Shown: one piece after another, positions 39,741-42,343 of the stretch
How the letters are laid out: each line of letters starts with the position of its first letter
Numbering within the stretch: the first letter of the stretch is position 1
Position numbers and translations under genes: made by a program
The notes under the pieces: model-generated
Seen by the model: only the letters and a program-made list of their open reading frames with translations
Databases searched by the model: none
What the model was told of the DNA's origin: nothing
Source of the DNA: Pantoea rwandensis
Lineage (GTDB): Bacteria; Pseudomonadota; Gammaproteobacteria; Enterobacterales; Enterobacteriaceae
Assembly: GCF_002095475.1 (NCBI RefSeq)
Contig: NZ_MLFR01000022.1
Coordinates: 1-64,000, forward strand
DNA: 64,000 bases
Direction: 5' to 3'

Positions 39741-41090
39741 TCAGATGGCCCAGCCACCGGCGTAGAATGCCACCAGCGCAATCGCAATCACTACGGTGCC
39801 GACATTCAACTTACGCCATTCACCGGCAAACACGCGACCAATCACCAGTGAGCCAAAGCCCAGCATAATGCCGGTTACGATATTGCACGTCAGCACGATG
39901 AACACCGCAGTGACCAAACCTGACATGGCATCGACGAAGTCATTGAAGTCGATTTTTGCCACATTGCTCAACATCAGCAGGCCTACATACATCAATGCCG
40001 GTGCGGTAGCGTAAGCAGGTACTAAGTAGGCTAACGGTGACATGAACAGAATCAGCAGGAACAGTAAGCCCACCACAATCGCTGTCAGGCCGGTTTTACC
40101 GCCCGCTGCCGTGCCAGCGGCAGATTCGATATACACGGCAGCAGGCGACGCGCCGACTAAACCAGCAAACAGACTGCTGACAGAATCGGTGGTGAGCGCA
40201 CGGCCGCCATTGATGATCTGCCCGTCTTTATCCAGCAAATTGGCTTGCCCTGCCACGGCGCGGATCGTGCCGGTGGCATCAAATACCGCGGTCATCACCA
40301 ACGCTAACACGCTCGGTAGTACCACTGGCTGCAGCGCGCCCATGATATCAAGGCTAAACATCACCGACTGACCGTTAGCATCTTTCAGGCTCGGCATGGC
40401 AAACAGCCCTTGATAGGTCACGGCGGGATCGAAAATCAGGCCCACCACCGAAATCGCGACGATGGTCAGCAAAATGCCGCCAGGCACACGACGTTTTTCC
40501 AGCCCGAAAATCGCTGCCAGACCAATCAATGCCATGATCACCGGGAACGAGGTGAAGTGCCCGAGTGCCACCGGCAAACCCGGCGCCGGGTTTTTCACCA
40601 CCAGGCCAATGCCGTCCGCCGCAATGAGCAGCAGGAACAGGCCAATACCCACGCCGGTGCCATGCGCTACGCCCATCGGCAAGTTACGCAGAATCCATGC
40701 ACGAATGCCGGTGACCGAAATCAACGTGAACAACAGGCCCATCAGGAATACCGCGCCAAGGGCAACCGGCACGCTGATGTGCTGGCCGAGCACCAAGCTA
40801 AACGCGGTGAAGGCAGTGAGCGAAATCGCACAACCAATCGCCATGGGCAGGTTGGCCCACAATCCCATAATGATCGAGCCAAAGCTGGCGACGAGGCAGG
40901 TGGCAACAAACACGGCAGTCGGTGAGAAGCCGGCTTTACCGAGCATGCCTGGAACCACAATCACGGAGTAAACCATGGCTAAAAAGGTGGTCAGCCCCGC
41001 TAAAATTTCCTGACGCACGCTGCTGCCGCGTGCCGAGATGTTAAACCAAGCGTCCAGTTTTCCACTGGCCGGGCGTGATTCGCCAGACAT
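39741..41090 (-). CDS. adeP: Adenine permease YjcD/AdeP
   Basis: A 449-residue nucleobase:cation symporter of the AzgA-like NCS2 family, the same length as E. coli AdeP (YjcD), a high-affinity adenine transporter. The N-terminus holds [19 protein letters not shown]; later come [19 protein letters not shown] near 270-290 and [19 protein letters not shown] near 320. ATG 41090 follows GAGG by seven bases. A near-consensus PurR box lies 89 bp upstream, so guanine/hypoxanthine-dependent repression is expected. It neighbours yjcE as in E. coli. PurP/AdeQ is the close alternative name. Confidence 0.9.
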
Positions 41091-41178
41091 AGTCAATCCT
41101 CTGCGTTTTTTAAGATGTCATGAGCCGCACGGCCCGCGTTTGCGCATCATCCTGGTGAGGGTTTCTCAATGAGAAAAG

Positions 41179-41391: not shown

Positions 41392-41483
41392 TTTATCGCA
41401 TAATTTTCTTTATCCAGCTGCACATGAGGTAAGAAGTGGCCGCTCTTTGCAGCGATGACCAACTTGAGGTCCAGCAGAGGCCC

Positions 41484-41585
41484 GCTCGAAGAGCAAAGCG
41501 TCCGCGTCATGGACAAAAACGCCGGGAGCGTTTTTGAACAATGCGAAGCATTGGCCCGTTTACGGGTGAGCCCCACGGATGGGGC
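41484..41585. ncRNA. Run of six adjacent hairpins, candidate structured RNA or repeat
   Basis: Six self-complementary stems follow one another: GCTC-GAA-GAGC (41484-41494), GTCC/GGAC (41500-41514), CAAAAACGC/GCGTTTTTG with loop CGGGA (41514-41536), CAATGC-GAA-GCATTG (41539-41553), CCCGT-TT-ACGGG (41555-41566) and GCCCC/GGGGC (41570-41585). The density is far above chance. It could be an ncRNA, a 5' leader or a dispersed structured repeat; the strand is unknown. I see no clear promoter. Confidence 0.4.
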
Positions 41586-41680
41586 GAATATCCGCGCGGC
41601 CGATCTGCATGGATGCGTGATTCCTTTGCGATCGGGCGGGCCTTTGTTGGGCATGGCACCTACCCGCAGCGAATAACCAA

Positions 41681-42343
41681 TTAACTAAACGTGATAGCCC
41701 CGCCCTGCTCAATTGCACGTTGCCAGGCGGCGCGTTGCTGCATCGTTTCGAGCCAGCGCGCGGTGGCCGGCATCTCTTGCAACGATCCCCGCATCTGCAA
41801 CGCCAGCAACGGGAAACTCATCTGCACATCGGCGATGCTAAACCGCGACCCGGCGAAATAACGATGCTGGCTAAGATGCTGCTCAATCACACTGCCGTGC
41901 AGCTTGAGCTGTTTGTTCAGCCACGCCCGCTGAATCCCTTTACTCAATGCCGCGCCTGCTGGACGCAATAACCACGGCACCGGCTTCTTACCTAACTGGC
42001 CAAAGACCAGCTTCATCACCAGCAATGGCATCAATGAACCTTCGGCATAATGCAGCCAGTATCGTGCCTGAATCTGCTCATCCTCGTCGGTAATGGCGAA
42101 CAGATGTTCACTGTCATATTTTTGCTGCAGATACTCGAGAATCGCGCCTGATTCGGCGATCACGCGATTGCCATCGGTAATCACCGGCGACTTACCCAGC
42201 GGATGGATCTTCTTTAATGAATCCGGCGCCAGCAGCGTATCTTCGCGCTGATAACGTTTGATTTGATACGGCACCGACAGCTCTTCTAGCAGCCATAACA
42301 CACGGTGCGAACGGGAGTTTTCCAGATGGTGGACAGTAATCAT
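41681..42343 (-). CDS. Glutathione S-transferase family protein
   Basis: A 220-residue cytosolic GST. The N-terminal thioredoxin-like domain (1-80) has SRSHRVLWLLEELSVPY and the cis-proline region GKSPVITDGNRVIAESGAIL, which binds the glutathione gamma-glutamyl group. The helical C-terminal domain (about 90-220) includes RFSIADVQMSFPLLAL. It conjugates or reduces electrophiles with glutathione; the substrate is not predictable. It lies next to soxR on the same strand, 44 bp away, and oxidative-stress function would fit. It has no equivalent at this point in E. coli. Confidence 0.85.
   Translation of the reverse strand: MITVHHLENSRSHRVLWLLEELSVPYQIKRYQREDTLLAPDSLKKIHPLGKSPVITDGNRVIAESGAILEYLQQKYDSEHLFAITDEDEQIQARYWLHYAEGSLMPLLVMKLVFGQLGKKPVPWLLRPAGAALSKGIQRAWLNKQLKLHGSVIEQHLSQHRYFAGSRFSIADVQMSFPLLALQMRGSLQEMPATARWLETMQQRAAWQRAIEQGGAITFS

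Follow-up and report, generated by a model that had tools for sequence, protein, structure and literature searches.

Which kind of sequence lies between a glutathione S-transferase (GST) gene and an ORF of the xanthine/uracil permease family (yjcD in an earlier note) in the 64-kb stretch of DNA analyzed here (the window)? The earlier note described six adjacent hairpins, two of them with GAA loops, and offered three readings: a structured RNA, the leader of an unrecognised transcript, or a dispersed structured repeat, possibly undescribed. Our analysis shows a non-coding palindrome dispersed in Pantoea, here in its long form, which carries at its apex a 78-nt core of the tRNA-linked repeat (TLR) type homologous to RrB of E. 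coli; as a whole, including the role inferred for it, we consider this explanation probable.

Extent, fold and copies of the element

The stretch 41484-41585 that had been singled out is too short, since the element spans 41470-41651 (Table 1). From the outside inwards this imperfect palindrome consists of the stem P1, a small internal loop, the stems P2 and P3, and the hairpins H1-H4 in the P3 loop. The fold of 41484-41585 has an energy of -42.3 kcal/mol (z -3.2; equalled by 0 of 200 shuffles), and the 78-nt module stretch by itself has a z of -4.3. For 41473-41649 (177 nt) z is -7.2 on the plus strand and -3.8 on the minus strand, and none of 200 shuffles equals either.

Table 1. Positions of the element, its parts and the neighboring genes in the window.
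Feature	Position	Strand	Basis
GST gene, ends ~30 bp from the element	41681-42343	-	
ORF of the xanthine/uracil permease family (yjcD)	39741-41096	-	
Whole element, long form of the dispersed Pantoea palindromic repeat	41470-41651	+	genome matches, fold, covariation
P1 outer stem, left arm (partner 41633-41649)	41472-41488	+	covariation
P1 outer stem, right arm	41633-41649	+	covariation
P2 left arm, GCAAAG (partner 41624-41629)	41493-41498	+	covariation
P2 right arm, CTTTGC	41624-41629	+	covariation
P3 left arm (partner 41595-41602); module M in the P3 loop	41499-41506	+	
P3 right arm	41595-41602	+	short-form genomes, covariation
Junction GGA	41511-41513	+	conserved in 73/76 copies
Module M, RrB/RtT-type TLR core, four hairpins, 78 nt	41513-41590	+	R1 covariance model
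H1, 9-bp stem CAAAAACGC/GCGTTTTTG, loop CGGGA	41514-41536	+	fold, covariation
H2, GAA loop	41539-41553	+	fold, covariation; loop varies
H3, TTTA loop	41555-41566	+	fold, covariation; loop varies
H4, loop ACGGAT	41570-41585	+	fold, covariation
H5, loop ATGGAT, outside module M, between P3 and P2	41607-41616	+	

The repeat is represented by 14 pieces in the window's own genome, where the middle part occurs in the window copy only and the other pieces among the matches listed are short forms. Matches were found in 27 of 60 genomes including this one (25 of the 36 of the genus and two of the 24 others), and all 34 plasmid records with a match are from Pantoea. A phage origin was considered and rejected, the phage collection giving no match. 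Eight tandem rows (L076 and L087) and two foreign ones (L031 and L032) were removed from 86 distinct module copies, leaving 76 long copies, a set that was collected by likeness to the window and may favor conserved parts. L076 and L087 contain the 78-bp core in tandem, in three and five copies, within one palindrome.

The sequence of P1 varies between loci and its pairing is retained: the outer arms have on average 12.3 of 14 positions paired, compared to 8.3 when arms are re-dealt among the copies (best of 200: 8.7; 74 of the 76 copies had distinct arms). In the 76-row alignment 93.6% of 4220 cells are paired, versus 83.2% in shuffles and 35-47% with the partners slid. Changes on both sides were seen in 30 of 56 pairs, among them 16 of the 17 pairs of P1, and the second pair of P2 occurs as CG, GC and UA. 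The covariation value is 0.296 versus 0.109 in shuffles (0 of 500 as good); kinship among the rows inflates these figures, and the slid control, which retains the kinship, yields 0.045-0.073. Thus the Pantoea palindrome covaries strongly across its 76 long copies, and the search for further copies and for covariation that had been recommended confirms the third reading, a dispersed structured repeat.

The hairpins of the earlier note fare unequally. All are self-complementary stems, and four of them (H1-H4) are conserved. Of the two with GAA loops, H2 is conserved, whereas GCTC-GAA-GAGC (41484-41494) is found in one of the 76 long copies, the window's own, and in three of the seven genomes with the element in the GST-yjcD gap. 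It is a local, non-conserved fold, the bases of which fall in P1 and P2 of the conserved structure.

Two open frames, of 73 codons on the plus strand and 136 on the minus strand, run over the element, and the 78 nt of the core preserve the frame at this locus; the element could hence be read as part of a coding sequence. Neither the 73-aa nor the 136-aa ORF has a Pfam match, though, the core lengths are spread evenly across the three remainders modulo 3 (26, 23 and 27 of 76), and frames are not kept among copies: 25 of 76 copies have the frame of the plus-strand ORF open, compared to 37 and 23 for the two other frames. We regard a coding origin as hardly credible and agree that no ordinary gene explains the feature.

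Kinship of the four-hairpin core

The exact H1 pattern occurs in 23 of 369 genomes of the class (Gammaproteobacteria), where the reversed pattern has no matches, and in 15 of 295 genomes of the order; both searches undercount, since exact H1 was demanded. In named genomes it was found in at least 119 stretches, and the matches listed include contigs of P. agglomerans, P. septica, P. latae, P. anthophila and P. brenneri. Two others among the matches listed are in contigs titled Desulfobulbus and Deltaproteobacteria (L160, L229), by transfer or mislabelling. Many of the modules with this pattern are preceded by T-loop-like GGTTCG, followed by AATCC and located near tRNA genes, and these flanks and neighbors suggested a link with the E. 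coli tRNA-linked repeats. Four loci (L102, L108, L116 and L122) hold tRNA-like copies with the module in a T-loop-like stretch beside an intact tRNA-Ser, -Arg or -Gln gene, and in L262 (G572), L108 (G078), L260 (G670) and L200 tandem units of 170-217 bp, with a module in each, resemble the tyrT repeats.

The Rfam family RtT (RF00391) has matches in 12 of 20 genomes including the window's own, 11 of them above the cut-off, and among the matches listed the RtT loci L287, L288 and L289 have a GGA-loop H1 of the window type. A covariance model (R1) was built from 14 modules, none of them from the window's genus; 13 of the 14 source loci have a tRNA gene according to ARAGORN, the other, L262, being without one within its 3 kb. 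R1 finds the window copy with 64.7 bits (E 6e-14), the next-best place in the 64 kb having 9.8 bits, and E. coli RrB, between the rrnB terminators T1 and T2, with 59.5 bits. The tyrT repeats are matched weakly, with 16-18 bits. The RtT loci L287, L288 and L289 score 47, 47 and 69 bits (L289 is part of the model); in the window's own genome R1 gives 42 bits to C54, an RtT locus by Rfam beside two tRNA genes, and 35 bits to C19, whose 3 kb contain no tRNA. Since most RtT loci match weakly or not at all (of the 19 searched, seven go unmatched at E 10 and another eight reach just 12-24 bits), R1 describes one branch of the RtT/TLR group.

R1 finds both the window copy and E. coli RrB, and we take the module to be an RrB-type TLR core on that ground; its homology to the four-hairpin core of the E. 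coli TLR is very likely. Judged by the same scores, the core is more distantly homologous to part of the RtT family. The suggestion of a structured RNA thus holds as a matter of kinship, the core being homologous to the E. coli sRNA RrB and the helices covarying. The recommended Rfam search misses it: no family reaches the cut-off in the 64-kb window, and RtT does not match the window copy even at E 5 (gathering cut-off, 45 bits).

Other features of a TLR are missing from this locus. The 64-kb window contains no tRNA or rRNA gene and therefore no operon of such genes, ARAGORN found no tRNA in the 3.7-kb locus L302, and no RNA gene lies upstream, the 3' end of which could be repeated over 18-19 bp. 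With the RtT model blind to the window copy and RNA genes of both kinds absent, two defining traits of TLRs are missing, and the module is best termed TLR-derived rather than a strict TLR; a plain tRNA-linked repeat is excluded, there being no RNA gene near.

Three genomes of the genus have 28, 29 and 33 R1 matches, tRNA-linked ones included, two genomes of other families have 52 and 22, and the window's own genome has three; 17 of 40 genomes have none. In the two genomes of other families (G049 and G050; L335-L358) TLR-type cores are scattered away from tRNA genes, several of them, by eye, at the tip of other palindromes.

Gene context and strand signals

The element lies downstream of the GST gene and upstream of yjcD, its plus strand being antisense to both. 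Using a codon-trained gene caller, both neighbors were called for 67 of the 76 long copies: 58 copies are in convergent gaps, four are sense, five, including the window copy, are antisense, and none is divergent. Of the other gaps, 11 of 31 in the same loci (Fisher p 6e-7) and five of 26 in the window are convergent. With a cruder caller the 76 copies comprise 51 convergent, seven sense, seven antisense and three divergent ones, and eight with one side missing. Three annotated plasmid copies are convergent, two of them being one locus in two plasmids.

This excess would suit a two-way insulator or terminator, that is, a palindrome that stops or stabilizes both transcripts of convergent genes at their 3' ends. 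However, no terminator-like site was found on the plus strand, and the one on the minus strand (41515-41499) is within chance (two in 2 kb versus 2.4 expected). Moreover, the window copy itself is not convergent, and the cores of other families are so in just seven of 29 loci, a non-random sample of the best-scoring listed places, which otherwise comprises nine sense, ten antisense and two divergent loci and one with a neighbor missing (24 of the 29 have no tRNA within their 3 kb). We consider this explanation unlikely.

The strong fold could also be that of an sRNA gene or a leader transcribed independently, from a promoter of its own. Against it, the gap has no promoter-like site on the plus strand (two such sites in 2 kb, versus 1.3 expected), and the 76 parsed copies are found at many places; this alternative is very improbable. 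The leader proposed in the earlier note lacks support, given the same absence of a promoter-like site in the gap, the location between two minus-strand genes and the lack of divergent copies (0 of 67).

The GST gene is present in 56 of 60 genus genomes, and the best 30 of the 56 loci were compared. Seven genomes have the element in the gap. The window's own genome, G694 and G705 have the core; G712, G700, G021 and G017 have the same palindrome with a closed P3 hairpin and without the core, the difference amounting to 78 columns. Among these seven, R1 finds the core in exactly the former three. At the GST-yjcD locus the entire core is therefore present in some genomes and absent from others, even where the GST DNA is 97% identical, as in G694 (core present) and G021 (core absent). 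The other 23 of the 30 loci have no element match by BLAST and no R1 match at E 0.1, and the GST tree has no supported fork. In relatives without the repeat (L309-L327) other palindromes, for example GGTCGCCATNNATGGCGACC and GCGCAATAAATTGCGC, are found in the gap downstream of GST.

Possible roles and comparison with known systems

RNA on the plus strand is favored by the fold and by an excess of G.U over A.C on that strand, 39:23 in P1 and 16:5 in M, and 124:65 over all cells, a total that is not independent of the other two counts. The excess is modest (p 0.056 for P1 alone and 0.027 for M alone), is counted over rows that share kinship, and would equally result from a strand-biased C-to-T process. 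In co-directional gaps there is no strand preference, four sense copies against five antisense ones in Pantoea and nine against ten in other families.

The latter result is expected of an element acting at the DNA level, whose hairpins in single-stranded or cruciform DNA serve spreading, as a recombinase or transposase substrate comparable to REP/BIME or IS200-like ends, the RNA fold being incidental. The same reading is favored by the tandem units of 78 bp and 170-217 bp and by the G^A step that the module occupies in several hosts (GGTTCG/AATCC, which is T-loop-like, and the P3 loop). GNA triloops are stable in DNA, and they occur in at least 55 of 206 H2 loops and at least 70 of 206 H3 loops (206 of 234 module-like sequences were parsed for loops and for G.U and A.C). 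The DNA-level reading is at odds with the far better fold of the plus strand compared to the minus strand, with the excess of G.U over A.C, and with the detection of the homolog RrB as an RNA (PMC8144298). We consider a purely DNA-level element rather doubtful; the evidence leans towards RNA ancestry, with the present role unsettled.

The preferred explanation assigns the RNA a role through CsrA. GGA is kept in 73 of 76 copies at the junction, in 75 in the H1 loop and in 73 in each of the H4 and H5 loops, compared to a mean column conservation of 0.63 in the H2 and H3 loops. The set of 206 sequences was left out of these counts because GGA had served there as the anchor for H1 and H4. In H4 and H5 the nucleotide preceding GG is variable, the H4 loops being AGGGAT, ATGGAT, AAGGAT and ACGGAT. 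The CsrA motif is ANGGA in a hexaloop, and the conservation of GGA, including that in hairpin loops, fits this pattern; csrA is present in the window's own genome. The element would be a non-autonomous repeat that spreads to the ends of genes, where read-through from a neighboring gene into its plus strand would provide a transcript with a tail folding into the hairpins; the four GGA sites of this tail could bind CsrA like RrB and shield the 3' end. Binding of CsrA by a plus-strand transcript is a tentative prediction, to which we give somewhat less than even weight, and the probability of a regulatory role at the GST-yjcD locus itself is low. As the plus strand is antisense to both neighbors, the window copy probably does no more than give the minus-strand GST transcript a structured tail, or has no function.

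A bolder version treats the RrB-type 78-nt core as a mobile unit by itself, which enters hairpin loops (T-loops of tRNAs and ANGGA loops) at the G^A step and has thereby strewn dozens of CsrA sites through gene 3' ends in Pantoea and other families. If so, these sites would together act as a distributed sponge for CsrA, scaling with transcription; we regard this as improbable. The spread itself is that of an ordinary dispersed repeat. What is unusual is the cargo, a known module of rRNA and tRNA tails away from RNA genes, so the earlier suggestion of something undescribed holds in part, for the setting and not for the core. TLR cores free of RNA genes, present in tens of copies in some genomes and with GGA fixed while other loops drift, allow a natural test of which features of TLRs selection maintains, and a comparison is already at hand in the GST-yjcD locus, since some close relatives have the core there and others lack it. 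No report of dispersed TLR cores of such kind was found in the literature searched, which mostly excludes subscription papers, and the exact H1 strings are absent from it.

REP/BIME elements are characterized by a GTAG foot and a RAYT partner, and ERIC by a consensus of ~127 bp. Compared by description only, the element resembles these and other stem-loop repeats (PMC2267715) in being short, multicopy, intergenic and foldable; the main text of that paper mentions neither Pantoea nor Erwinia. It shares the C-ANGGAT-G hexaloops with CsrA sponges of the CsrB/RsmZ type, but is dispersed, has few sites per copy and has no Rfam match to them. The Alcanivorax CsrR1/2 RNAs, a lead from the available part of PMC9788540, did not apply.

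The term tRNA-linked repeat is used in PMC8144298 and also occurs in PMC9245011. In the available part of PMC8144298, TLRs are described as tied to tRNA or rRNA genes and without settled function, and a claim that they act in the stringent response is said to be withdrawn; it is repeated in the available part of PMC4986893, where RtT-family RNAs adjoin tRNA genes in Actinobacillus. RtT (the tyrT and other repeats) has the core order of the window copy, and L287, L288 and C54, all from the window's genus, match R1 well, but the window copy has neither an RtT match nor a tRNA 3' end.

The closest likeness is to RrA, RrB and RrF, the TLRs behind E. coli rRNA operons (PMC8144298). According to the same portion of that paper, RrB, between rrnB T1 and T2, binds CsrA and Hfq and has no clear phenotype; a first K_D for CsrA in vitro was estimated at ~100 nM, the shift is lost over the tested range once three GGA are altered, and the authors predict that the 19 TLRs of tRNA operons are unlikely CsrA binders. 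The window copy shares with these three the order of hairpins, the H1 core GCCGGGAGC, the GAA-loop H2 and the GGA loops. It differs from them in being located outside an RNA operon and inside a larger dispersed palindrome, which adds GGA sites outside the module, at the junction and in H5.
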